Shown here: piece by piece, positions 6,285-38,760 of the stretch | Position numbering within the stretch: position 1 is the first letter of the stretch | Layout of the letters: each line of letters begins with the position of its first letter | Program-made: the position numbers and the translations under genes | Notes under the pieces: model-generated | Told to the model about the DNA's origin: nothing | Seen by the model: the letters and a program-made list of their open reading frames with translations, nothing else | Database searches by the model: none | Source of the DNA: Candidatus Onthousia faecavium | GTDB lineage: Bacteria > Bacillota_I > Bacilli_A > RF39 > UBA660 | Length of the DNA stretch: 54,900 nucleotides | Assembly (NCBI GenBank): GCA_018711135.1 | Contig: DVIS01000033.1 | Coordinates: forward strand, 1-54,900 | Direction: 5' to 3'

Positions 6285-9005
6285 ATGAATTATAGTATTG
6301 TAATATATGCAACTGATAAAAACGATTTAGAAAAGACTTTGATGAGTATTAATAGTCAGAAATATGATTTAACTAAAGTTGAAATAATTGTTGAAAATAT
6401 CAATGATGAAGAGTTTTCTTCTACTGATATTAAGAATTTTGATTATTTAAATATCATTTATAATGATAAAATTGCTAGTAAAGCGGAAGCATATAATCAC
6501 GCTCTAACTGTTGCAACTGGTAAATATATTACCTTTATTAATAGTGATATGTATTATGAAAGCAACAAGACTTTTTCTTTAGTCGAAAAGTCTTTGCGGG
6601 ATATTGATTTAGTAGCAATAAATGGAGGTTACTTTGATAGTGATAAAAAAAAGCGTATACCTTATGTTATGCAACCCAAAAAGACTCAATTAATTAATCT
6701 ATATGCAAAACCTTATACTATTCAACTTCTGTTTTCTGCATATTTCTTTAAAAGAGAGCTTTTAAGAGATCATTATTTTGATGATACTTTACATGAGGAA
6801 TGTCAAATAAAACTACTATTAGAAATTTTTGATACTAACTTTGTTTATAAGTATTTTGAAGAGTTAAAACTAACCTCTAAAGAGCCATTTGAAGATAATA
6901 CCTCTAAATGTTCTATTCAATATAATCTTTGGTGGTATAAAGATTCTGTTGATAGATTAATTAATCCTCTTTTGGATAGTTATTCAAAGATACCGGAATA
7001 TATAGAAGAAATATGCATGTATTTAATTTTTACTAAATTTAATTGCAACACTAAAGATAGAAATAAGAATGTCTTATCACAAACTGATTTTGCTGCTTTT
7101 AAGGAATCTGTTTTAAAAGCTTTAGTTAAAATTGATGACAAAATAATTTTACAAACAAGTTTAAAGTCTATAAGTGGTAAAGGTGATAAACATCAGTTTA
7201 AAATACCAAGATGGTTACGTTTTTGGTTTATAGATAAAAAAATTGCCCTATTAGAGGCAAAAAAGAATATTATAGTCTCTAAAATAAATAATCACCATAA
7301 TACCTTATTAGAATATACTAAGGATAATAAAAAAACTAAAGCCTATATTAGTACAGATAGAGCCTATAATTTAAGTGAAAAAGTTAAGATAAAAGCAATA
7401 AATTATAAAGATTTTAACCTTCAAATTGATGCTTCTGTTTCAATTAGTGATTTCTTACCAACTGATGAGATTAATATCATTGCTGAGCTAGATAATAAAA
7501 AGGTTCCCCTTAAAAAAACGGCAGTTTATTCATCTCTAAAAGCTTTTGGCGTTAACTTAGCAAATGAATATACTTTTATGATAGACTTTAAAGTTGATCT
7601 TCTAAAAAAGCAACAGTTAAAATTTTATGCTTTAATTAATGGAAAAAAGCTTCCTTTAAATTTGCGTTTTGACAAAGTTCAAGCAAGATTATCAAAATCA
7701 AAACGATCTTTTTGGTCTTATAAGGGCATAATGTTAAAAAATAAAATATCTTATCTTACAATTGAAAAAAGTACAACTCTAAAAGTCATTAAAGCTGAAT
7801 TACTATACGATTTATCAAAATTAAAAAATGAAAATAACAAAATACGAGTACTTAAATTGATTGGCTTAAGATTCATATATTATTTAACAAGACCTTTTTA
7901 TAAAAATAAACATTTATGGATAACATTTGATAAGTTATATAAAGCTGGAGATAATGGCGAATATATATATCAATATGGCTTAAAACATAATAGAAATATT
8001 TACTATATTATAAAAAGAGAATCATTAGATTATAAAAGATTATTAAGTCAAAAACATAAGAAAATCTTAAAGTACAATAGCTTAAAAGCAAAATTATTAA
8101 GTCTTCATGCTGAGGTTATTTTAAAAACTCATGCTAACGTTATATCTTATTGTGGTTTTGATGGGTTAGCTCGAGAAATGTTTAGCGGTTTATATAATGC
8201 TGATTTAATTGAAATCCAACATGGCTTAACCATTCAAGAAATTGCTCAATATCAGAATAGATTATTTGATAACATCAAACATTACTGCTGTGCTTCAAAA
8301 TATGAGGTTAAAAATATTCTTCAAGAAGAGTATGGCTTTGATAAAAAAGATATCTCTTTAACCGGTTTAGCACGCTATGATGGATTAAAGTCTAATGATA
8401 AGAAAATTATCTTAATAACTCCAACGTGGAGAAGAAATATTGTAAATTCAAATATTGTTCATGTTAAGAAAAGTCATAATGAAAACTTTCGAAATAGTGA
8501 ATATTTCAAGATATATAATTCTTTAATAAACAATAAAAAGCTTATTGAGGTAGCGAAGGAAACAGGCTATAATATTATATATTTATTACATCCAGCTACA
8601 AGTAGTCAAATAGATGATTATGATAAAAATGACTATGTTGAGCTTATTCCTGCTACAGGTGACATGAGTTATGAAAAAATCTTAACAGAATCTAGTTTAA
8701 TGGTTACAGATTATTCAGGAGTGCAATTTGATTTTGCGTATCAAAGAAAACCAATTGTTTATTATCATCCTAATGCTCTTCCACCGCATTATCAAACAGG
8801 TATATACGACTATGAGACAATGGCTTTTGGACCTATTTGTAAAACTGAACAAGACTTAGTAGATGAACTATGTAGTTACATGCGAAAAAAATGTTCCATT
8901 AAAAAGAAATATGAGAAAAGAGCAGATGACTTTTTTGCTTATAATGATTATAATAATTGTCAAAGAATAGTAGAAGCGGTTGATAAATATTTAAATGATA
9001 AATAA
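6285..9005 (+). CDS. Bifunctional GT2 glycosyltransferase / CDP-glycerol glycerophosphotransferase
   Basis: A two-domain protein of about 906 residues. The N-terminus (about 1-230) is a GT-A type family 2 glycosyltransferase: it opens with YSIVIYATD and has NSDM as its metal-binding DxD-like site. The C-terminal third is a teichoic acid polymerase domain with EIQHGLTIQE, TPTWRR, YLLHPAT and DYSGVQFDFA. Such fusions can both glycosylate and extend a polymer. Three Met codons stand at 6276, 6279 and 6285; AAGG at 6272 fits only the last. This is the largest gene of the operon and is probably the main chain polymerase. Confidence 0.82.
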   Translation: MNYSIVIYATDKNDLEKTLMSINSQKYDLTKVEIIVENINDEEFSSTDIKNFDYLNIIYNDKIASKAEAYNHALTVATGKYITFINSDMYYESNKTFSLVEKSLRDIDLVAINGGYFDSDKKKRIPYVMQPKKTQLINLYAKPYTIQLLFSAYFFKRELLRDHYFDDTLHEECQIKLLLEIFDTNFVYKYFEELKLTSKEPFEDNTSKCSIQYNLWWYKDSVDRLINPLLDSYSKIPEYIEEICMYLIFTKFNCNTKDRNKNVLSQTDFAAFKESVLKALVKIDDKIILQTSLKSISGKGDKHQFKIPRWLRFWFIDKKIALLEAKKNIIVSKINNHHNTLLEYTKDNKKTKAYISTDRAYNLSEKVKIKAINYKDFNLQIDASVSISDFLPTDEINIIAELDNKKVPLKKTAVYSSLKAFGVNLANEYTFMIDFKVDLLKKQQLKFYALINGKKLPLNLRFDKVQARLSKSKRSFWSYKGIMLKNKISYLTIEKSTTLKVIKAELLYDLSKLKNENNKIRVLKLIGLRFIYYLTRPFYKNKHLWITFDKLYKAGDNGEYIYQYGLKHNRNIYYIIKRESLDYKRLLSQKHKKILKYNSLKAKLLSLHAEVILKTHANVISYCGFDGLAREMFSGLYNADLIEIQHGLTIQEIAQYQNRLFDNIKHYCCASKYEVKNILQEEYGFDKKDISLTGLARYDGLKSNDKKIILITPTWRRNIVNSNIVHVKKSHNENFRNSEYFKIYNSLINNKKLIEVAKETGYNIIYLLHPATSSQIDDYDKNDYVELIPATGDMSYEKILTESSLMVTDYSGVQFDFAYQRKPIVYYHPNALPPHYQTGIYDYETMAFGPICKTEQDLVDELCSYMRKKCSIKKKYEKRADDFFAYNDYNNCQRIVEAVDKYLNDK

Positions 9006-9059: not shown

Positions 9060-9836
9060 ATGAAGAATATTGCTGTTATTTTTGCTGGAGGAACAGGAAA
9101 TAGAATGGGGTCATCTCTTCCTAAACAATTTTTAAAAGTAAATGGAAGCGAGATAATAATTCACACCCTTAATCGGTTTGAAGAAAATGAAAATATTGAT
9201 GAGATCTATGTTGCTTGTATAGAAGATTGGCTAACTTATCTAGACAACATAATAGCTCGTGCTGGTATTAGAAAAGTAAAACGAACTTTTAAAGGTGGTA
9301 AGACAGGACAAGATTCTATATTTATTGGCCTTAGTGAGGTTTTAAAAGATCATGATAATGCTATTGTTCTTATTCATGATGGAGTAAGGCCATTAATAAC
9401 TGATGAGGTTATTAATAATTGTATTGAGAAAGTCAAAGAATGTGGTAACGCTATTACAGCAACTCCCTGCTTTGAGACTCCAATTACAAGTCATGATGGA
9501 GTATTAGTTGATACAATGCCAAGACGTGATACTGTATATACAGCTCAAGCTCCTCAGTGTTTTTACTTACAAGATATATATAAGGCTCATTTAGAAGAAA
9601 GAGCTATTAATCCTAATTATGAAGGCATAGTTGACTCTTGTGGCCTAATGTTTAAACATGGTATTAAATGTCATTTAATTAAAGGTAACAGAGGAAATAT
9701 CAAAGTAACTACTCCTGAAGATTTCTGTACTTTGATTAGTAATTTAAATGCCATAGATTATGCCCAATTCTTAAATTTAGAAAACAATCTAAATGAAAAA
9801 AGCAAGGGAAAAGAATATGTTTTAAAAAAACATTAA
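9060..9836 (+). CDS. Ribitol-5-phosphate / 2-C-methylerythritol-4-phosphate cytidylyltransferase (TarI/IspD family)
   Basis: A 258-residue nucleotidyltransferase that makes a CDP-polyol from CTP. The signature FAGGTGNRMG with PKQF binds CTP; IHDGVRPL and TAQAPQ are conserved in both TarI and IspD. Position inside a teichoic acid operon favours TarI (CDP-ribitol synthesis). However, no TarJ reductase to make ribitol 5-phosphate lies next to it, so IspD or another polyol substrate is possible. The start at 9060 follows ATGGAGGT; the upstream ATG at 9048 is part of that ribosome site. Confidence 0.82.
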   Translation: MKNIAVIFAGGTGNRMGSSLPKQFLKVNGSEIIIHTLNRFEENENIDEIYVACIEDWLTYLDNIIARAGIRKVKRTFKGGKTGQDSIFIGLSEVLKDHDNAIVLIHDGVRPLITDEVINNCIEKVKECGNAITATPCFETPITSHDGVLVDTMPRRDTVYTAQAPQCFYLQDIYKAHLEERAINPNYEGIVDSCGLMFKHGIKCHLIKGNRGNIKVTTPEDFCTLISNLNAIDYAQFLNLENNLNEKSKGKEYVLKKH

Positions 9837-30892: not shown

Positions 30893-30920
30893 GCTTCCTA
30901 TAATATATATTATGTTAACT
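30893..30920 (+). other. dif: dif site (XerC/XerD recombination), left attachment boundary
   Basis: A 28-bp site: XerC arm GCTTCCTATAA, centre TATATA, XerD arm TTATGTTAACT. From memory, the Bacillus subtilis dif differs at only 3 of 28 positions (1, 9 and 24). It sits where the main coding strand switches from plus to minus and 1.8 kb from xerD. A second site with the same centre and XerD arm lies at 37989-38016. This is therefore the chromosomal dif or its hybrid after phage insertion. Confidence 0.88.
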
Positions 30921-30938
30921 AATATGAATAAAACCTAA

Positions 30939-30959
30939 GTGAAGCTTTTTTCTCTTCAC
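30939..30959 (-). terminator. Hairpin at the left end of the prophage
   Basis: Stem GTGAAG (30939-30944) / CTTCAC (30954-30959) placed just after the last minus-strand gene of the element and 18 bases from dif. It may end leftward phage transcription before the chromosome; its T-run is poor. Confidence 0.45.
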
Positions 30960-30969
30960 ATATACAATA

Positions 30970-31266
30970 TCACAAAACATCAAATAATACAACCAAAAAG
31001 AAAAATAATAAAAGAATTAATATAATAAAAATAGGAAGAAGAACTAAATAAAAAAATGAATTAAAAGTAGATTCTTTTTCAAAATTATCAAAACTTTTAT
31101 TTAATAAATGCTGTTTTTCTTTTTCAACCTCCAATTCAAATAAAGCTTGTTTTTTAATATCACGTTTACGAATGATGTTAATCAAAAACAAAGCTATAAA
31201 AAAAGGAACACCAAACATCAAAAAGCAACCAAATAAACTTAAAACTATAAAATCATAATTAGACAT
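30970..31266 (-). CDS. Prophage two-helix membrane protein
   Basis: A 98-residue protein with two hydrophobic segments (about residues 6-32 and 70-97) joined by a charged, helical, coiled-coil-like middle (KRDIKKQALFELEVEKEKQ). AGAGGTG with 6-base spacing supports ATG 31266; the upstream GTG overlaps that site. The function is unknown. A related but broken copy (also beginning MSN-DF, with the same ribosome site) lies in the remnant at 38158-38244, so it is a standard part of this element family. Confidence 0.7.
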   Translation of the reverse strand: MSNYDFIVLSLFGCFLMFGVPFFIALFLINIIRKRDIKKQALFELEVEKEKQHLLNKSFDNFEKESTFNSFFYLVLLPIFIILILLLFFFLVVLFDVL

Positions 31267-31281
31267 ATAAAACACCTCTGA

Positions 31282-31392
31282 TTAAAGTATAACAAATAAT
31301 AAAATAAATAACACTTACTACCCTACTCTCTAAAATTAACTTTACATACAGTTTACACTTAGAAAGTGCTTCTAAATTTTATTATTGATAAC
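31282..31392. promoter_or_regulatory. Conserved noncoding block of the element (candidate origin/packaging region)
   Basis: About 111 bp without a gene that recurs at 38262-38370 with only about a dozen differences, although neighbouring coding sequence has diverged or been lost. It holds a hairpin TTAGAA-AGTGC-TTCTAA (31359-31375); in the second copy the stem TAGAA/TTCTA is kept while the loop changes. Such conservation suggests a cis-acting role in replication or packaging. The exact role is inference. Confidence 0.55.
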
Positions 31393-31394
31393 AA

Positions 31395-31421
31395 AAAAGA
31401 ACAAGTATAAACTTGTCTTTT
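31395..31421. terminator. Bidirectional hairpin downstream of rep
   Basis: Stem AAAAGAACAAG (31395-31405) / CTTGTCTTTT (31412-31421) with one bulged A and T-rich tails on both strands. It probably ends rep transcription. Confidence 0.65.
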
Positions 31422-31438
31422 TTCTAAAAACCATTATA

Positions 31439-31506
31439 ATATATTAATTTGCTTAATCAAGGGCTTCGCAAGTGCTAAAGCACCCTTGACACGCAAATTA
31501 ATATAT
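31439..31506. repeat. Large nested cruciform overlapping the 3' end of rep
   Basis: The outer stem is a perfect 14 bp: ATATATTAATTTGC (31439-31452) with its complement at 31493-31506. Inside it, TCAAGGG (31457-31463) pairs with CCCTTGA (31483-31489), and GTGCT-AA-AGCAC (31472-31483) forms a terminal hairpin. The right outer arm includes the stop codon of rep. In filamentous phages, nested hairpins in the main intergenic region are origins and the packaging signal; this is a candidate for either. Confidence 0.75.
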
Positions 31507-32328
31507 ACTTGGGGCTAGTGTCTTCAAATAAGAAATAGTATAAACATAAGAATGTTGCATTAAATCATTTACAAAGGTAAGAGAATCTAACTTTAGTTCC
31601 TTAATAATATCCTTATATTTCTTTCGAGTATTCTTAGAAAGTAATCCTAACCGTGATATATCTTTCAATATATAATCCAAACATGCTTTATCAGTAAAAG
31701 ATAAATCATCAACTGAATAATATCTAAAAATCAAAACACCCTCAAGAAAATCTTTAAAACCAGTTAAATAAGTATCAATATAAGTGTCTCTGAGTTGCAG
31801 CTCGATTCTCCACCAGTCAACATCTTTGTCTTTAACTTTCTGCTCAACAGCTTTATTATATATCCTAATAAATTTATTAGAACTCATAGATCCAAAATAA
31901 CATGTTTCCAATTTGCCTACCCTATCATAATAATAAGCTTTCTTCCTAGAATTAAGATCAACTATATTATATTCATACAAATTGTAATTGTATAAATCTA
32001 TAGCTAAATCTATTCTACTGAAATGAACATCTTTAATATAAGACAAAAGTAAGTTTAATAGTTTCTTTTGAGAATTTTTATTAATCTTATTGGGATTAAA
32101 TTCTAATCTAAATTTTAAAGTAGTAATATCAATTTGCAAGAATCCAAAATCAGTTATATTCCAACTTTTAGTAAAAAATTGAGTATCTATAATCTTTTCA
32201 AAAAAAGGTATAGGATAAGTATAAGCAAGTTCTATTATATTAAAATAATAATCTTTATATTTTAAAGTACCTAAAACAGTTAACTTATCTATACTAAAAT
32301 CACAAAACTTATCAACATTATTTTCCAT
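31498..32328 (-). CDS. Phage replication initiation protein (Rep_trans family)
   Basis: A 276-residue rolling-circle initiator. Family features: FSRIDLAIDLYN (about residues 106-117); CYFGSMSSNKFIRIYNK, the G-S-x-x-S block with R-I-Y-[ND]-K; and WWRIELQLRDTYID, which has the catalytic-region Glu. In inoviruses such proteins nick the double-stranded origin through a tyrosine. ATG 32328 follows ATGGAGG. The C-terminal coding sequence (31526-31556) is repeated in the remnant at 38370-38400. A cruciform overlaps its stop codon. Confidence 0.85.
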   Translation of the reverse strand: MENNVDKFCDFSIDKLTVLGTLKYKDYYFNIIELAYTYPIPFFEKIIDTQFFTKSWNITDFGFLQIDITTLKFRLEFNPNKINKNSQKKLLNLLLSYIKDVHFSRIDLAIDLYNYNLYEYNIVDLNSRKKAYYYDRVGKLETCYFGSMSSNKFIRIYNKAVEQKVKDKDVDWWRIELQLRDTYIDTYLTGFKDFLEGVLIFRYYSVDDLSFTDKACLDYILKDISRLGLLSKNTRKKYKDIIKELKLDSLTFVNDLMQHSYVYTISYLKTLAPSIY

Positions 32329-32366
32329 AAAACCTCCATTCATCATTTAAACTAATCTTTTCATTT

Positions 32367-32657
32367 TCATAAATTATTTCCTAAATAATTCAGAACATAG
32401 TCTATTGTTTTTTTATGTCCCTCAATTGCGTCTTTAAGTGTTGTATATCTTTCTTGAAAAAATATAAAAGATTCATCAGTATTATTCTCACAATTAAATA
32501 TCATTGTTTCATAATATAGTGGAGAAAAATTAGAGTTAAGTTGTAAATTGAATCCTAAATCTACTGTAGATATAATATATGACTTAATTTTTGTAGTTAA
32601 ATGAAATATATTCCTAGAATCATAATCTTTTCTAAAACCAAATTTTTCTCGATTCAT
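32367..32657 (-). CDS. Prophage hypothetical protein
   Basis: A 96-residue soluble protein with excellent ribosome site AAAGGAGG. The C-terminal half (ETMIFNCEN, then ERYTTLKDAIEGHKKTIDYV) resembles a pattern common in small phage proteins, where ETMVF is followed by RY-x-T-x-x-x-A-x-x-GH. I know no function for that family. It lies between the hairpin cluster and rep, so a role in replication control is possible. Confidence 0.72.
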   Translation of the reverse strand: MNREKFGFRKDYDSRNIFHLTTKIKSYIISTVDLGFNLQLNSNFSPLYYETMIFNCENNTDESFIFFQERYTTLKDAIEGHKKTIDYVLNYLGNNL

Positions 32658-32680
32658 ATTATTACCTCCTTTCTTAAAAA

Positions 32681-32756
32681 TCCCAAATATTGGGAAGATT
32701 ACCCTATGTTATAGAGGGGTAATCTTTTCTAGCCCGCTTCGCGGGGCTTAGAAAAG
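32681..32756. repeat. Three consecutive hairpins between zot and the downstream gene
   Basis: Read on the plus strand: TCCCAAA-T-ATTGGGA (32681-32695), AAGATTACCC / GGGTAATCTT (32695-32704 and 32717-32726), and a GC-rich stem CTTTTCTAGCCCGC (32724-32737) with 32741-32756 that has two one-base bulges. The last contains the zot stop codon. On the minus strand the first is followed by a T-run and may terminate transcription. The cluster is GC-rich for this element and is a second candidate for an origin or packaging signal. Confidence 0.72.
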
Positions 32757-33473
32757 CTTCTCACTTAATAAATCTAAATCATTAGATTCTAAATCAATAG
32801 AACTATAATTGCCATGATCCAAAAGTGGCTTATCAGAATTCAAAGGACGCAAATAGCAAGTGTCATAAGACTTAAAAGCTTTTCTAAAGTTAACAAAAAA
32901 TATTTTAGATTTGATGTCTTTCATTTTTCTTAATTCACTATCTTTACTAAAAGACATTTCATAATCTTCAAATTCATAAGTTACTCTAGCAGAAATAAAA
33001 CCAATATTTAAAATAGGTATACGAAACATAGTCTTAATACGATAATATTCACTAACAACATTTCTTAATTTTTTAACAACTCTACTAGGATGTTGAGAAA
33101 TATAAATAATATCTTTTATACCAAAATGACGATGTGCTTGATTAAAATTAGCAATTATTTTAGGAAAAGTCTTATATTCATCAGAATCATAAAATAATTG
33201 AATCTCATCAATAATTATCAAAGAATTTTCTAAAAAAGAATTTTTATTCATTAAATCATATACACTAACCCTATTAGAATAAATCTTTCTACGTTTATCT
33301 AAACAAATAGGAAAATTAGAATAAACAGAATTATAAATAGAAGGCTGACGACGTAATTTTCTTATCAATCGTCTTAAAAACTTATTTTGATCATTAAAAT
33401 GCTTAATAGCTAAATGAGTACTTAATAAAGTTTTACCTTTTCCAGGTAAACCGTTAATAGAAATAACTGACAT
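32748..33473 (-). CDS. Zot-domain ATPase (inovirus assembly, pI-like)
   Basis: A 241-residue P-loop ATPase: Walker A GLPGKGKTLLS (residues 8-18), Walker B LIIIDEIQLFY (about 84-94), then FNQAHRHFGIKDIIYISQHPS, the Zot block with its conserved His and the Q-H-P sensor. Zot/pI proteins drive extrusion of filamentous phages. Most pI proteins carry a membrane helix and a periplasmic tail; here the region after residue 150 is polar and no such helix is visible. A separate small membrane protein of the element may supply it. Ribosome site AGAGG. Confidence 0.85.
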   Translation of the reverse strand: MSVISINGLPGKGKTLLSTHLAIKHFNDQNKFLRRLIRKLRRQPSIYNSVYSNFPICLDKRRKIYSNRVSVYDLMNKNSFLENSLIIIDEIQLFYDSDEYKTFPKIIANFNQAHRHFGIKDIIYISQHPSRVVKKLRNVVSEYYRIKTMFRIPILNIGFISARVTYEFEDYEMSFSKDSELRKMKDIKSKIFFVNFRKAFKSYDTCYLRPLNSDKPLLDHGNYSSIDLESNDLDLLSEKLF

Positions 33474-33480
33474 AAAACCT

Positions 33481-33702
33481 CTAATCGTTAAAATCGTAAA
33501 TAGTTAATTGTTTACGTTTTTCTTTTTCAAGATAAGAAGAAATAAAATTTCTATTAGCTATAACAGTTTGATCAATTAAAGCGATAAGATTACCAGCCTC
33601 TACTCTAACATCATAAGGTAAATCCCATAAATACTTTTTCAATGAACTCTTAATAATTAACATTTTTTGATTTTCATCTTTCTTATTTTTTATAACACCC
33701 AT
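33481..33702 (-). CDS. Prophage hypothetical protein
   Basis: A 73-residue soluble, basic protein (opening GVIKNKKDENQK; central RVEAGNLIALIDQ), unrecognised. Its start overlaps the end of the upstream small membrane protein by 13 bases, and it is 7 bases ahead of zot. Ribosome site TAGGAGTG before ATG 33702. Confidence 0.65.
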   Translation of the reverse strand: MGVIKNKKDENQKMLIIKSSLKKYLWDLPYDVRVEAGNLIALIDQTVIANRNFISSYLEKEKRKQLTIYDFND

Positions 33703-33851
33703 AATAACACTCCTAAACTTAAATTAAGTAAAGTACAAAATAAAGAAATATAAAATAATTCCTTATCATACCATTGATAAAATTTGTAACACAAACGAAA
33801 CTGAAAAACAATTAATAAACAAAAATTTAAAAAAGATAAAAATTCTAACAT
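33690..33851 (-). CDS. Prophage small two-helix membrane protein
   Basis: A 53-residue protein with two hydrophobic segments (about 2-18 and 32-53) around a short polar turn (YKFYQWYDKE). The ATG at 33851 has GGAGGTG at ideal spacing; the frame is open further upstream but that part overlaps the preceding gene. It may be a minor virion protein or the membrane partner of the Zot ATPase, by position only. Confidence 0.65.
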   Translation of the reverse strand: MLEFLSFLNFCLLIVFQFRLCYKFYQWYDKELFYISLFCTLLNLSLGVLLWVL

Positions 33852-33870
33852 AATTAACACCTCCAAATTA

Positions 33871-34062
33871 TTAAAATAACAAATTTTTAATCCATAAAAA
33901 AGACTTATAAAAAATAGTAATAACAAATGATAAGAAAGCAATATAGAATCCATTAACAATAACTAATAAAGCCATTTGTTGAAAAGAACCCATTTGCAAA
34001 ACATTAAATTGTTGAAAGATAGACATCTCAGCTATCTGTTCAATTGTAAAAAATAAATACAT
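33871..34062 (-). CDS. Prophage small membrane protein
   Basis: A 63-residue protein with a polar Gln-rich N-terminal third and one long hydrophobic stretch (about residues 28-58). AAGGAG ribosome site before ATG 34062. Size and topology fit minor virion proteins (pVI, pVII or pIX class) of filamentous phages, but no sequence match is visible. Confidence 0.65.
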   Translation of the reverse strand: MYLFFTIEQIAEMSIFQQFNVLQMGSFQQMALLVIVNGFYIAFLSFVITIFYKSFLWIKNLLF

Positions 34063-34065
34063 ATA

Positions 34066-34293
34066 CTAACTCCTTCCATTTCGTTCTTTTTCTTTATTCC
34101 TAGAAAATTGTTTAAACTCACTAATACCATTACTACCAAAACCAAAACGAAGAACAGATATAAAAGTTAAAATGATAATAATTGCAACAAAAAATTGTAA
34201 AAAATTAACGTTTTCCGTTAATTGAAAATTACCCCAAAGTTGAGAAATTAATTCTCCAATTAAATCAAAATAAAACTTAATAACATCTAACAA
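34066..34293 (-). CDS. Prophage small membrane protein
   Basis: About 75 residues, with an amphipathic N-terminus, one membrane helix (FFVAIIIILTFISVL) and a basic tail ending in RNKEKERNGRS. The ribosome site GAGGTGG points to a TTG start at 34293; a GTG at 34302 overlaps that site. It overlaps the end of the surface-protein gene upstream. The basic cytoplasmic tail is reminiscent of DNA-contacting coat proteins, but this is speculative. Confidence 0.6.
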   Translation of the reverse strand: MLDVIKFYFDLIGELISQLWGNFQLTENVNFLQFFVAIIIILTFISVLRFGFGSNGISEFKQFSRNKEKERNGRS

Positions 34294-34295
34294 TA

Positions 34296-35045
34296 TTACC
34301 ACCTCAAAACTTTAATAATAATAGCTATAGGACTAGAAATAACAATAACTAATAATATACACAGTAAATAATCTGATATAGTATAAACAAAAGAAAATTC
34401 TTCTGGAATATTATCACCTAAAACTAATTTAGAAATAGTATGAAAATCATTATCATCAAATATAATAATATCTTTATCAAACTCAGTTAAATATAAATCA
34501 GTATAGGAATAAGTATCAGTAGTATTAAATTGACCATAAATATTAGATGAATTATTTATGTCATAAAAATAAAAAGTATCAACACCATTAGCAGTGAATT
34601 TAATTGGAATATCAGAATATAAAACAAAGTTTTCAAAAGAATTTTTAGAGGTACGATAAATAAAATCAGCATTAGATTTTACGAAATTATAATTTTCGTC
34701 AAAATAATATATATTAAAACCAGAAGAAGAAAAAATATAAAGGAAATTACTATTACTAGAATTATATCCAAAATTTATTGTAGTATTTGATAAAATACAA
34801 GATAAAACGTATCTATTAGATGAATTAGGTTGATAAAATAAAATACACTTATCCCCTTCCCTTTGTTCAACATTAGAATCACTATAAAGAGTATTCTTAA
34901 TATCTAATCCTTCTCCATTTTTAATATCAAAATCTTCGACAATATTATAGTATGGAATGTATAAATCTTCTCCAGCAGCAAAAACATCACTAGGAATTAA
35001 AAATATTGAAAATAATAAACCAAATATAATTATATAATTCTTCAT
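34296..35045 (-). CDS. Prophage exported, membrane-anchored surface protein (second pIII-like)
   Basis: A 249-residue protein with a signal peptide (FGLLFSIFLIPSDVFAA; cleavage probably after the final Ala), an Asn-, Ser- and Tyr-rich exterior domain of about 190 residues, and a C-terminal membrane helix (LLCILLVIVISSPIAIII) followed by KVLRW. This is the layout of the pIII adsorption protein of filamentous phages. The signal peptide is almost identical to that of the gene at 35192. The start ATGA overlaps the stop of the small gene upstream. Confidence 0.72.
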   Translation of the reverse strand: MKNYIIIFGLLFSIFLIPSDVFAAGEDLYIPYYNIVEDFDIKNGEGLDIKNTLYSDSNVEQREGDKCILFYQPNSSNRYVLSCILSNTTINFGYNSSNSNFLYIFSSSGFNIYYFDENYNFVKSNADFIYRTSKNSFENFVLYSDIPIKFTANGVDTFYFYDINNSSNIYGQFNTTDTYSYTDLYLTEFDKDIIIFDDNDFHTISKLVLGDNIPEEFSFVYTISDYLLCILLVIVISSPIAIIIKVLRW

Positions 35046-35176
35046 TTCTTTTCAACCCATGGAGCAACTAATAAACCATAAATAGTTAACAAACAAATAA
35101 GCATAAAAATTATAGGAACAATAAAACTTATCTCTTGAGGAAAAACACCTAAGAAATCAACTAATATATCATACAA
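35042..35176 (-). CDS. Prophage tiny membrane protein (44 residues)
   Basis: TTG start at 35176 with AAAGGAG at 8-base spacing; it reads through to TGA at 35042-35044 and overlaps the next ATG. One membrane helix (about residues 19-37, IVPIIFMLICLLTIYGLLV) and a basic end VEKK. Found by reading the 146-base gap between the two surface-protein genes. Probably a minor virion or assembly protein. Confidence 0.6.
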   Translation of the reverse strand: MYDILVDFLGVFPQEISFIVPIIFMLICLLTIYGLLVAPWVEKK

Positions 35177-35191
35177 ATTACTCACTCCTTT

Positions 35192-36295
35192 CTATTTTAA
35201 ACATTTAATTATTAAAATTAAAATTCCTAATATAAAAACAGAATATAATCCTACAGTAATAATAGGTGGAAAAGCACTCATTGAAATAGTAAAAATAGTA
35301 CCTACAACTGCAAAAGCTGAAACCATTTGACCTAGCAAATCTGGAATCATAGACAATATATCACCTAAATTAGAAGGAACATCAAAAATAGTACCATTAT
35401 TACCAATTGATTCAGAAATATCTTGATGATTAGAAAAATCTAAATTATTACCGTTAGTATCTATAATACTAGAATTTGAAGAAAAAGATAAATTGTCATC
35501 TAAAAGAGAATCAAAACCATTTAAATATTTACTAGAATCAAAATAACGCGAAAATTCTATAGTTTCATAATAAGGAACACCATTTAATGTAAATTGATCA
35601 GTTGGATCGGAAATAGTAAAAAACATATCATCATATTGATACATAGGATCAAGTGGAAGATTAACAGATAAATTAAATATAATTATTTTATCCTCTTTAT
35701 TTAAATAATTAGAAAAAAATGTTAAAGAACCTAACTTATTAGGCAAATCTGAAGAAAGTGGAATTCTTTGTTCTACACGAGTAGAATCTCCAGACAATCT
35801 CAACATGATTTTGTCAGTATAAGAAAAACTTATAACATAATTAGCAGATTTATCAGCTTTTAAAAAAACATAATAAGGAAGCTTATCAATTATTTCAGAA
35901 GCTTGTAAAAAAGAACTATTACCATATTCAAAATAAACAGAATATAAATCACTAAGATAAGGCTCTGTAAACTTTGATTTATCTTTAGGAATATATTTTT
36001 CTAAACCAACACGAGAAATATCAAAACGTTCATTCATAACCTCATAATCATTATAACCATAAAAAAAATATGCTTTATAAGTATCAGAACCTATCTTTAA
36101 ATTTAAATAAGTTAAATCATCTGAACGTTTAACAATCTCGCCTAATCCAGTAACATCTACCTCATCAATACAATTAAATGAACTAAAAGAACAAGCTTTA
36201 TTGTTTGTATCAGCAGCAAATACGTCACTAGGAATTAAAAAAATTGAAAACAATAAACCAAATAAAATTAAATAATTATTTTTTTTCAATATCAT
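35192..36295 (-). CDS. Prophage exported, membrane-anchored surface protein (first pIII-like)
   Basis: A 367-residue protein with signal peptide (LFGLLFSIFLIPSDVFAA), a Ser-, Asp-, Tyr- and Asn-rich exterior of about 280 residues, and a C-terminal hydrophobic region with two possible helices (MVSAFAVVGTIFTISM and GLYSVFILGILILII), then KCLK. It is probably a receptor-binding or assembly-terminating virion protein. GGTGAT with good spacing supports ATG 36295; the frame starts at a GTG within that site. Its signal peptide is shared with the 249-residue gene downstream. Confidence 0.72.
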   Translation of the reverse strand: MILKKNNYLILFGLLFSIFLIPSDVFAADTNNKACSFSSFNCIDEVDVTGLGEIVKRSDDLTYLNLKIGSDTYKAYFFYGYNDYEVMNERFDISRVGLEKYIPKDKSKFTEPYLSDLYSVYFEYGNSSFLQASEIIDKLPYYVFLKADKSANYVISFSYTDKIMLRLSGDSTRVEQRIPLSSDLPNKLGSLTFFSNYLNKEDKIIIFNLSVNLPLDPMYQYDDMFFTISDPTDQFTLNGVPYYETIEFSRYFDSSKYLNGFDSLLDDNLSFSSNSSIIDTNGNNLDFSNHQDISESIGNNGTIFDVPSNLGDILSMIPDLLGQMVSAFAVVGTIFTISMSAFPPIITVGLYSVFILGILILIIKCLK

Positions 36296-36380
36296 CTTTA
36301 TTATCACCAAAAATATTAAATTTTTTACAAAGGAAAATAGCTAATAATAAAGAAAAAATAATAACTAAAAAATTAATCAT
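36276..36380 (-). CDS. Prophage tiny membrane protein (34 residues)
   Basis: ATG 36380 follows GAGAGG; the product has one membrane helix (INFLVIIFSLLLAIFLC) and a polar tail GDNKDDIEKK. It overlaps the start of the large surface-protein gene by 20 bases, consistent with coupled translation. The size matches the pVII/pIX class of tiny virion proteins, by size and topology only. Confidence 0.58.
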   Translation of the reverse strand: MINFLVIIFSLLLAIFLCKKFNIFGDNKDDIEKK

Positions 36381-36492
36381 AAAAACTTAACCTCTCTTTC
36401 TTTAAAATTTCAACAAAAGATATTTTTTCAAGTAACTTAAGCAAAAAACAATTATCAGCTACTACTAATTCAACTTTATAAATAAATATCAC
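36373..36492 (-). CDS. Possible 39-residue prophage peptide
   Basis: A continuous frame from GTG 36492 to TAA at 36373, overlapping the next start codon. AAAGGGTG lies at the GTG itself, so the true initiation codon is uncertain. Product (about 39 residues) is amphipathic with KLLEKISF and a basic stretch. It could be a real small protein or just leader sequence between terminator and surface genes. Confidence 0.3.
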   Translation of the reverse strand: MIFIYKVELVVADNCFLLKLLEKISFVEILKKERLSFYD

Positions 36493-36511
36493 CCTTTCGT
36501 ATAAAATAAAA

Positions 36512-36531
36512 GAGAGCAGTTACCTACTCTC
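36512..36531 (-). terminator. Terminator directly after the coat-like genes
   Basis: On the minus strand an eight-base-pair stem GAGAGTAG / CTGCTCTC (one T-G pair) with loop GTAA, followed by TTTTATTTT. Filamentous phages use a terminator after the major coat gene to make coat mRNA abundant; the placement here is the same. Confidence 0.72.
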
Positions 36532-36534
36532 AAA

Positions 36535-36720
36535 CTAAAATATCTTCTTAAGCACCTTGATAGCAGTAAATACAGCAATTACTCCAAAAGGAACTAATAA
36601 GATTGGGTTAGAGGTCATAACCTCTAAAAAATCAACAGCCCAACCAGTTACAGCAGTAACAATAGTACCTAAAGTAGTAAGATAAGTACTTAAATCCATA
36701 ACAGCAGCAATCTGTGGCAT
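36535..36720 (-). CDS. Major coat protein-like (copy 2)
   Basis: A 61-residue protein: short N-terminus, an amphipathic stretch (LSTYLTTLGTIVTAVTGWAVDF), one membrane helix (PILLVPFGVIAVFTAI) and a basic C-terminus KVLKKIF. This is the plan of mature filamentous-phage coat proteins (membrane helix plus basic end facing DNA). There is no cleavable signal peptide. Ribosome site AAAGGAG at 8 bases. About 70 percent identical to copy 1 over the last 50 residues. Confidence 0.75.
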   Translation of the reverse strand: MPQIAAVMDLSTYLTTLGTIVTAVTGWAVDFLEVMTSNPILLVPFGVIAVFTAIKVLKKIF

Positions 36721-36737
36721 AACTTAAACTCCTTTCA

Positions 36738-36935
36738 CTAAAAAATTTTCTTCAAAACTTTTATAGCAGTGAAAACAGCAATTACTCCAAAAGGCACTAA
36801 AAGAATCGTATTGGTAGTTAATACCTCTAAGAAACTAACAGCCCAACTAGTTACAGAACTAACAATAGTACCTAAAGTTTCTAGATAAGTAGATAAACCC
36901 ATGGTAGTAGTAACATCAGTAGCAACTTGAAGTAT
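36738..36935 (-). CDS. Major coat protein-like (copy 1), probable ATA start
   Basis: About 65 residues, paralogous to the next gene: LSTYLETLGTIVSSVTSWAVSF, then ILLVPFGVIAVFTAIKVLKKIF identical at the end. The only ATG (36953) overlaps the AAAGGAG ribosome site. At the position equivalent to the ATG of copy 2 (8 bases after AAAGGAG) there is ATA at 36933-36935, and alignment of (M)LQVATDV with MPQIAAV supports it. GTG at 36942-36944 is the other choice. A strong -10 TATAAT lies upstream near 37000. Confidence 0.7.
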   Translation of the reverse strand: MLQVATDVTTTMGLSTYLETLGTIVSSVTSWAVSFLEVLTTNTILLVPFGVIAVFTAIKVLKKIF

Positions 36936-37018
36936 AGCAATCACTCCTTTCATAGTTTTTATGTTTAAGCTAACACCTCAAATTGCTCAAACTATATTAT
37001 AAAGCAACATCTCTAAAC

Positions 37019-37324
37019 TTAATAATCTAAATAAAACTTATATTGTTCATAATAATCAACCATTTTATGACCATATCCATTAACATATCCAGGAGAACAC
37101 CAATGTTCAGAATCTTGAATAGGTCTATGCTTAGTAATTCTAACAATTAATGTGCCATCTTTTTTCTTATAGATTGAACGACACTCTTTTAAAATAACAG
37201 CATTATAAGGTTTATAAGATGAACTAAAATCAAAAGATAATTGTCTTATATCATCAGAACTAAAATCCTTTAAATAACGATTTCGATAAGATAATCTGCT
37301 ATTATCAAACTCATCACGAATCAA
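37019..37324 (-). CDS. Prophage hypothetical protein
   Basis: A 101-residue soluble protein, Tyr- and Asp-rich, with a TTG start at 37324 after GGGGGTG. The middle (CRSIYKKKDGTLIVRITKHRP) looks like paired beta strands with basic residues, possibly nucleic-acid binding. The end has EHWCSPGYVNGYGHK. I do not recognise a family. It precedes the coat genes. Confidence 0.62.
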   Translation of the reverse strand: MIRDEFDNSRLSYRNRYLKDFSSDDIRQLSFDFSSSYKPYNAVILKECRSIYKKKDGTLIVRITKHRPIQDSEHWCSPGYVNGYGHKMVDYYEQYKFYLDY

Positions 37325-37344
37325 ACCAACACCCCCTTTGAATA

Positions 37345-37650
37345 TTAATCTATTTTAACACTAACAGCTCTAGGTGGTTTAGATGTAGAATATATTTCTA
37401 AACTTAAAGTAGCACTTTTAGGTAATATAACATTCTTATTATTATCAAATATCTTTAAAGAATCGGAACCAGAAATAAAAGAACTTTGAACAACTCCACC
37501 TATATAATTATCTTTTAAATTTTCATCAGGATCAGATAAATAATAAATCTTAACCCCTTGAATTTTATCTCCATCTTTTGTAGAAAAATCTAATTTTTGA
37601 ATAGATATTAATCTAATTTTTTGATTAATAACTGGAAATTTATTATCCAT
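37345..37650 (-). CDS. Prophage small beta-rich protein, possible ssDNA-binding (pV-like)
   Basis: A 101-residue protein composed mainly of predicted beta strands (KIRLISIQKLDF, GVKIYYLS, ATLSLEIYS, RAVSVKID), with no membrane segment. Filamentous phages need a small beta-barrel protein that coats ssDNA. Size, position early in the transcript and strand pattern fit, but no signature confirms it. Start at ATG 37650; codons upstream in frame overlap the ribosome site. Confidence 0.5.
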   Translation of the reverse strand: MDNKFPVINQKIRLISIQKLDFSTKDGDKIQGVKIYYLSDPDENLKDNYIGGVVQSSFISGSDSLKIFDNNKNVILPKSATLSLEIYSTSKPPRAVSVKID

Positions 37651-37667
37651 AAAACATCTCACTTTCT

Positions 37668-37883
37668 TTATTTAAACTTTCTTAAATATAAACGAGCTAA
37701 CTTAATAGCATAAATTAAATCATCAGAACTATAATTAGAATATGGATATTCAATTTTATATAAACCATAATCTGAATTACATAAATACAACATATCTTTA
37801 TAAGTATTTAAATACTTACGTAAATAATCCTTAAGATTTCTAATGCGATATAAATCCTCGTCAATTTTTTCTTTTTCTCTCAT
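37668..37883 (-). CDS. Prophage first-gene hypothetical protein
   Basis: A 71-residue helical, highly charged protein rich in Tyr, Lys and Arg (REKEKIDEDLYRIRNLKDYLRK), unrecognised. Ribosome site TGGAGATG before ATG 37883. As first gene after the palindromic operator at 37898, it could regulate the element. Confidence 0.6.
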   Translation of the reverse strand: MREKEKIDEDLYRIRNLKDYLRKYLNTYKDMLYLCNSDYGLYKIEYPYSNYSSDDLIYAIKLARLYLRKFK

Positions 37884-37897
37884 AGAAAACATCTCCA

Positions 37898-37917
37898 TTC
37901 TAAAATATATTTTAGAA
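37898..37917. promoter_or_regulatory. Perfect 20-bp palindrome before the first prophage gene
   Basis: TTCTAAAATA / TATTTTAGAA, an exact palindrome that ends 14 bases before the first start codon. On the minus strand it also contains -10-like sequence. It is the natural place for a repressor to control the element. Confidence 0.6.
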
Positions 37918-37927
37918 AAGAAAAAAG

Positions 37928-37947
37928 CTTGAGATGTTCATCTCAAG
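37928..37947 (-). terminator. Hairpin at the right end of the prophage
   Basis: Stem CTTGAGAT (37928-37935) / ATCTCAAG (37940-37947) with a strong T-run on the minus strand. It would stop leftward chromosomal transcription from entering the element ahead of its own promoter. Confidence 0.65.
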
Positions 37948-37988
37948 TTTTAAGATATTATGTAAACTAACAACTAAAAAGTTATAAA

Positions 37989-38016
37989 AACTCTCATAGT
38001 ATATATTATGTTAACT
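37989..38016 (+). other. Second dif-like site with divergent XerC arm (right boundary)
   Basis: XerC-side arm AACTCTCATAG, centre TATATA, XerD arm TTATGTTAACT. The centre and XerD arm are identical to the site at 30893-30920; the XerC arm differs at several positions. Such hybrids are what strand exchange between chromosomal dif and a phage attP is expected to leave. Confidence 0.8.
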
Positions 38017-38400
38017 AGCGTTATCGAGAAAAACATTTTCTTTTAATAATTAAAAAATCAAATAAAAAATTAACTATTTATTATTAAGAAAATTAGTTAA
38101 TTTAACATTAATTAAAATTTAAAAAAACAACAACACAACAAAGTAAAACAATTAAAACTATAGGAAAAACATAATACAAAAAAACATTATAATAAGTATT
38201 AAATTCAAAAAAGTTGAAACACTACTAAAATCTAAATTACTCATAAAAAACACCTCTAAAAAAAGTATAACAGATAATAAAATAAATAATAATACTCCCC
38301 TACTATCTAAGATTAACTTTACACACAGTTTACACCTAGAAAGCGATTCTAAATTTTATTATTGATAACAAATAAGATATCGTATAAACATAAGAATGTT
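38017..38400 (-). mobile_element. Remnant of a second related inovirus-like element
   Basis: Right of the second dif-like site the left end of the element recurs. There is a membrane-protein gene with the same ribosome site and MSN-DF start, then the conserved 110-bp noncoding block (38262-38370), joined directly to the last 30 bases of rep (38370-38400, matching 31526-31556). The rest of rep and everything beyond it is missing, and the cruciform segment has been deleted. This indicates an older tandem insertion that decayed. Confidence 0.75.
38158..38244 (-). pseudogene. Broken copy of the prophage two-helix membrane protein
   Basis: ATG 38244 after AGAGGTG; 28 codons (MSNLDFSSVSTF, then hydrophobic residues) end at TAG 38158-38160. 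Another frame continues with a second hydrophobic stretch to about 38108, so the gene seems frameshifted. Homologue of the gene at 30970-31266. Confidence 0.5.
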
Positions 38401-38640
38401 AATCAAGATAATATTAAAATAGAATTTTTAGAATCATATATAATTTTTTCCCGAAGTCAAAAATTGTCTACAATAAGCATTTATATTGCCTGTGGTTCCT
38501 TACTTATTAGTATAATAGTAAACAGTAATAAATTTTCATTATTATTACAATTTCAACTTTTTTAATATACACAATAATTTTATATTATAAATTAAGATAC
38601 TACTCTACTCCCCTTCTCTTTTACTTATTATTTAAGTCCT
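38401..38640. other. Junction stretch with no supported gene
   Basis: Between the rep remnant and the small minus-strand gene. No frame has a ribosome site on either strand. No third dif-like site with a proper 6-base centre is visible, so the right end of the remnant was lost by deletion. Confidence 0.5.
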
Positions 38641-38760
38641 CTATTTCTTTTTCCCTTTTATGCTTATATTATACCAGTCGATGAACTTTTTAATTACATA
38701 AGTTAAAATAACTCCAACTACCGCTATATAAGCTATTATTGCTTCTATATCAATCAGCAC
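38641..38760 (-). CDS. Small membrane protein downstream of the HTH regulator
   Basis: A frame of 39 codons from GTG 38760 to TAG 38641: IDIEAIIAYIAVVGVIL, then TYVIKKFIDWYN, ending in a basic tail KGKKK. One membrane helix. It starts about a dozen bases after the HTH gene and shares AAAGG as ribosome site, although the exact start codon is uncertain. Size and topology resemble small holin-like or toxin-like peptides; the function is unknown. Confidence 0.45.
   Translation of the reverse strand: MLIDIEAIIAYIAVVGVILTYVIKKFIDWYNISIKGKKK

Follow-up and report, generated by a model that had tools for sequence, protein, structure and literature searches.

Immediately to the right of the second of two dif-like sites in the genome of Candidatus Onthousia faecavium lies a short stretch that resembles the left end of the prophage between the two sites. 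The question it raises is whether a second, related phage once occupied the same chromosomal site and decayed there. We analysed a window of 54,900 nucleotides (positions 1 to 54,900 of contig DVIS01000033.1, assembly GCA_018711135.1), which is contig C11 of an AT-rich 1.28-Mb genome bin. All genomes compared were assembled metagenome bins, and their junctions are known from the assemblies alone. A DNA search with the putative phage scar over 148 genomes returned mostly AT-rich chance matches, and matches at the dif locus alone were kept.

The dif site and its resident prophage

The gene order of HTH gene, dif, and deoB-like gene is conserved in the genus, as judged from 30 genome loci, and dif itself is present in 29 of them, the exception being G032, whose contig ends before dif. 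The GC skew changes sign at the dif position of the window, and therefore the region is very probably the chromosome terminus. Phage-free sister species have one dif at the corresponding locus, and in the window two Xer sites of 28 bp each, starting at 30893 and 37989, flank the resident element (Table 1). An extra XerD-arm half site, TTATGTAAACT, was noticed at 37958-37968. It is also present in related phages (L036 at about 9461-9569, L039 at about 6440-6500), and in the G032 phage a further dif-like unit, this one complete, lies there as well.

The resident element encodes a Zot-type ATPase at 32748-33473 (PF05707, E 3.2e-10) and a rolling-circle Rep at 31498-32346 (PF02486, E 8.1e-12), both above the gathering score, along with two small coat-like proteins at 36535-36953. 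With the ATPase, the Rep, and dif-type flanking sites all present, its sequence identifies it as a dif-integrating filamentous phage. No integrase gene was seen in it. Two further phage proteins, of 249 and 372 amino acids (34296-36310), have a common N-terminal segment, like diverged duplicates, and are possibly adsorption proteins. Relatives of the resident Rep were found neither in phage records (tblastn) nor in IMG/VR (single-protein and alignment patterns), and an alignment of Zot found none in IMG/VR; the comparisons below therefore rest on species-level genomes. The most distant Rep relative found in the genome scan, at 46%, is in another Bacilli bin (L130, JAQVZB010000054.1).

The left end of the prophage, adjoining dif, is of particular relevance to the remnant. 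Its last gene encodes a two-helix protein with homologues at the ends of other prophages and at phage-free dif loci. The protein has weak matches to DUF6688, DUF3169, and others, all below gathering scores, and no convincing family was found for it in Pfam; searching the resident protein over the family likewise gave marginal matches only. Upstream of this gene is a promoter/operator-like block, whose exact repeat was located by motif searches of the whole genome only in the phage, in the remnant, and once elsewhere. The GTAGGGG block was also considered as a general promoter of the genome, a reading that was rejected, since the block hardly occurs outside the phage and the dif locus. A strong hairpin (z −4.45) separates rep from the two-helix gene and is a possible single-strand replication origin of the phage; a hairpin at this position was also observed in the G005 phage.

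Composition and damage of the remnant

A search of the window's own genome matched 38218-38389 to 31241-31412 with 85% identity over 172 bp (E 1e-48), and 38369-38400 to the rep 3' part at 31525-31556 with 94% identity over 32 bp (E 4e-7). In local alignment, 38017-38420 scored 217 against the left module of the phage, compared with a maximum of 58 and a mean of 39 in 300 dinucleotide shuffles. The similarity is therefore real, and the outcome that would have overturned the earlier note, a resemblance of 38158-38400 to the left module no better than that of random AT-rich sequence, is excluded. Read on the minus strand, the remnant has the order of the prophage: rep 3' part, noncoding block, two-helix gene, and XerD arm of the Xer site.

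The details of this composition departed in part from the first description. Three-frame translation confirmed that the two-helix gene is frameshifted. The gene is related to that of the resident phage, as claimed, but the second half of its protein resembles type A of the two types described below rather than the resident protein (52% over 27 amino acids to the G003 protein by tblastn, the assignment resting on those 27 residues). The shared noncoding block, given as 110 bp, extends over about 130-170 bp. The rep piece, described as the last 30 bases of the gene joined on by a deletion, is 32 bp long and ends about 25 bases before the rep stop; the deletion itself is real. It removed 133 bp between 8-bp repeats GTATAAAC, which are located at 31405 and 31538 in the phage and reduced to a single copy at 38382 in the remnant, and it took with it the hairpin and the true rep end.

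In addition to this deletion and the frameshift, a third event has damaged the remnant. Its outer edge, which the earlier note had not described, is a fusion with a truncated chromosomal gene at 38418-38585. This gene encodes a membrane protein that we call winged-helix-like from a reading of its sequence; no Pfam family was found for it, and it is intact in G022 and G010. Since half of the host gene is left and the rep piece lies 17 bases away, a deletion fused the middle of the host gene to the end of the earlier phage. Further along, directly after the HTH gene, a 39-aa hydrophobic ORF (MLIDIEAIIAYIAVVGVILTYVIKK..) is present at 38644-38760 and kept in G022 and G025.

Table 1. Features of the dif locus, in window coordinates
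Feature	Position	Strand	Basis
Chromosomal dif, left att site, GCTTCCTATAATATATATTATGTTAACT	30893..30920	+	sequence reading; conserved locus; skew
Resident filamentous prophage, 7.1 kb	30921..38016	-	Pfam matches; blastn to L038/L099
Two-helix gene of resident phage, type B head; last gene, adjoining dif	30970..31275	-	ORF list; homologues
Promoter/operator-like block of phage, TGTAAAC-N4-TGTAAAG then AGTAGGGTAGTA	31316..31357	-	motif searches
Stretch between GTATAAAC repeats, hairpin and rep end; counterpart deleted in remnant	31405..31545	-	hairpin score; sequence
Right att site, dif-like; centre and XerD arm identical, XerC arm degenerate	37989..38016	+	sequence
End of older phage (probable): rep piece, noncoding block, broken two-helix gene, end by att site	38017..38400	-	sequence matches; shuffles
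Frameshifted, truncated two-helix gene; frame 0 MSNLDFSSVSTFLNLILIIMFFCIMFFL then stop, other frame YYVFPIVLIVLL..	38108..38244	-	three-frame translation; tblastn
Promoter/operator-like block of remnant, TGTAAACTGTGTGTAAAG ... AGTAGGGGAGTA	38293..38334	-	motif searches
rep 3' fragment of older phage, joined to noncoding block at GTATAAAC (38382)	38369..38400	-	sequence matches
Deletion junction; 17 bases assigned neither to old phage nor to chromosome	38401..38417	.	junction alignments
Surviving C-terminal half of chromosomal winged-helix-like membrane gene	38418..38585	+	86% to G022; protein search
Weak extra copy of AGTAGGGGAGTA block part, chromosomal position before winged-helix-like gene	38598..38617	-	motif searches

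Two-helix genes and scars across the genus

The arrangement of promoter block, two-helix gene, and dif recurs across the genus without a phage. A type A gene lies by dif in G003, G004, G008, G012 (truncated), G013, G014, G019, G031, G032, and G033, with diverged forms such as that of G002 and broken ones such as that of G015, and a type B gene in G001, G021, G023, and G028. The winged-helix-like gene, whole or in ruins, was found in G010, G016, G022, G024, G026, and G034, and complete or partial prophages in G000, G005, G013, G022, and G032. The type A gene occurs not only in phage-free loci but also at the end of the G005 prophage, and the type B gene at the prophage ends of G000, G022, G013, and G032. 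Most type A scars have no rep left, and for these a phage origin rests on position and on the G005 phage. In G030, a scar of about 1.1 kb of phage end keeps most of rep, and the scars of G001, G021, and G023, of about 350 bp, are 92-94% identical to the G032 phage end. Similar tails at the same place in so many sister species mean that one dif site has been repeatedly invaded and cleared.

The HTH-gene side of dif is variable too, since a DUF2726 gene and an unrelated 362-aa membrane protein gene alternate between the HTH gene and dif, upstream of the block (G012, G013, G021, G028, and G031, and G004, G008, G016, and G024). In L099 (G022:C28), an IS200-like transposase gene (PF01797) was observed in the interval from the HTH gene to the att site, between a 37-aa ORF and a block-like motif.

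The type present can change between sister species: G003, for example, has A and G023 has B. Among the scars and the G032 phage, type B genes share 92-99% identity, compared with 87-93% between their hosts at the flanking gene, with the exception of the G023-pG032 pair (95.0 against 96.1%). The pattern of the two-helix gene is thus one of turnover and not of simple descent.

All of this bears on an alternative in which the block and the two-helix gene are an old chromosomal gene beside dif that phages captured later. The gene stands by dif in most genus members without a phage, is often intact, and has a dN/dS below 1 in nearly all comparisons. For type A, pairwise dN/dS is mostly 0.3 to 0.9 with large scatter, against under 0.1 for the neighbouring HTH gene. 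In a rough neutral simulation at 5% divergence, the reading frame survived in 43% of cases when indels were left out and in 9% when one indel accompanied every ten substitutions, which makes long survival of the ORF under neutrality unlikely; selection during phage life, however, would give the same signal. What speaks against a chromosomal origin is that the gene is joined to rep sequence in G000 and G030, that both types occur at prophage ends, that the types alternate between sister species with B mostly more alike than the hosts, and that 65 genomes outside the genus yielded one weak match. The rep sequence inside the scar of the window means that this scar, too, is not merely a chromosomal gene; the rep piece is short, but its place in the scar and the larger scar of G030 back it. 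We regard the alternative as unlikely, and prefer, with a probability of about 0.92, the reading of 38017-38400 as the inert tail of an earlier filamentous prophage, related to the resident phage and integrated at dif.

The decisive comparison is with G022, the closest relative. G022 has at the same dif a prophage that is 99.9% identical over its full length (blastn), and to the right of it the winged-helix-like gene is whole and the scar absent; the scar is therefore not part of the resident phage. A partial duplicate of the resident end, made at integration, would account for the shared order and orientation, and dif-integrated filamentous phages often occur in tandem copies (PMC7307601), but the identity of only 85% and the different two-helix type in the second half mean that the scar is not such a duplicate, and it is joined to a broken chromosomal gene. 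Already contradicted by G022, an origin from the resident phage is very improbable. It is scarcely credible that the scar is a small functional satellite or RS1-like element beside a helper phage. Filamentous satellites beside dif phages are known, and like RS1 and the TLC phage the scar is short phage-related DNA adjoining a dif phage (PMC4246890); unlike them it retains no replication or regulation gene, and it has no intact gene at all, no functional rep, a deleted hairpin, and no pair of att sites of its own, its one att site being common with the resident phage. Misassembly has to be weighed because all data are assembled bins and phage ends are repeated in the contig. The two copies differ by 15%, so that neither is a misassembled copy of the other; moreover, the scar runs on into DNA homologous to the G022 chromosomal flank, and the same class of scar is present in independent bins, which leaves an artefact extremely unlikely. 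The central claim of the earlier note, that another related phage inserted at this dif and its copy then decayed, has survived every test applied to it, and a complete tandem second prophage, which it had proposed to look for in related strains, was found in none of the relatives. The scar is probably older than the resident phage, to judge from its decay and from the 99.9% phage identity across hosts that are 90.5% identical at the flanking chromosomal gene.

Proposed history and its significance

On the basis of these comparisons, we propose that a relative of the resident phage, though not that phage itself, integrated at dif through the host Xer recombinases, as the att sites suggest. The deletion seen at the junction would then have extended from within the adjacent chromosomal gene almost to the rep end, so that the outer att site and most of the phage were lost. 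The dif site and the adjoining phage end would have been retained, presumably because the cell needs dif to resolve chromosome dimers. The 133-bp slip deletion and the frameshift, both read directly in the remnant, would have killed the remaining piece, and the present phage would have come last, entering the dif that was left so that the scar now lies to its right. Today the remnant most likely has no function.

The scars of the sister species, in which the promoter block and the two-helix gene are often both whole, point to another route. In G021 and G028, the DNA before the block matches type-A chromosomes and the DNA after it matches the G032 phage, and the informative sites show a single switch from chromosomal to phage type inside the block. 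Most likely, a phage integrated at dif, and one crossover between the resident block and the block of the incoming phage then deleted the prophage and swapped the two-helix gene, leaving the last gene of the phage at dif. Such block-to-block recombination is read from sequence mosaics, and an exchange with incoming phage DNA that had never integrated would leave an identical mosaic trace. If loss proceeds by block-to-block recombination of an integrated phage, the window is the state before such an event, its two blocks lying in direct orientation at a distance of 6,977 bp; its own scar arose differently from those of the sister species, by deletion into a host gene. It may further be that each phage visit swaps the two-helix gene through block recombination and that selection keeps the gene as protection against filamentous phages of the same site, though we consider this rather doubtful.

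That filamentous phages insert at dif repeatedly and in mixed sets, unequal tandem copies among them, has been described for CTX phage, Ypf phage, and UP phi phages (PMC7307601), and heterogeneous dif copies are known from the ECONIH2 triple (PMC7307601, PMC4246890). The element of the window resembles these tandems in its host Xer target, the lack of a visible integrase gene, the Zot-type ATPase with a rolling-circle Rep, and the repeated insertion. In contrast to them, only 384 bp of the second copy remain here, joined to a host gene that is itself broken, and the hosts are uncultured Bacilli/Tenericutes bins. Among the Xer integration types reviewed in PMC4246890, where VGJ-type integration is described as reversible, the VGJ-type attP is like the resident site in being a single dif-like site with a centre matching dif, but the resident phage has in addition the XerD half site 48 bp inside. 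No description of genus-wide phage-end scars at dif was found in the open-access literature.

Taken alone, the remnant is of a known kind and probably inert; the interesting part is the recurrent scar locus. The remnant records that related filamentous phages entered one chromosomal site at least twice, in a host group for whose phages the phage and viral collections searched gave no match. With the scars of the sister species it makes up a natural series of prophage loss at dif, the scars measuring 1.1 kb, 384 bp, and 350 bp, and this series suggests that loss can proceed through a shared promoter block and leave the last gene of a phage behind. The function of the two-helix gene, and the guess that leftover phage genes act as immunity, thereby become directly testable.
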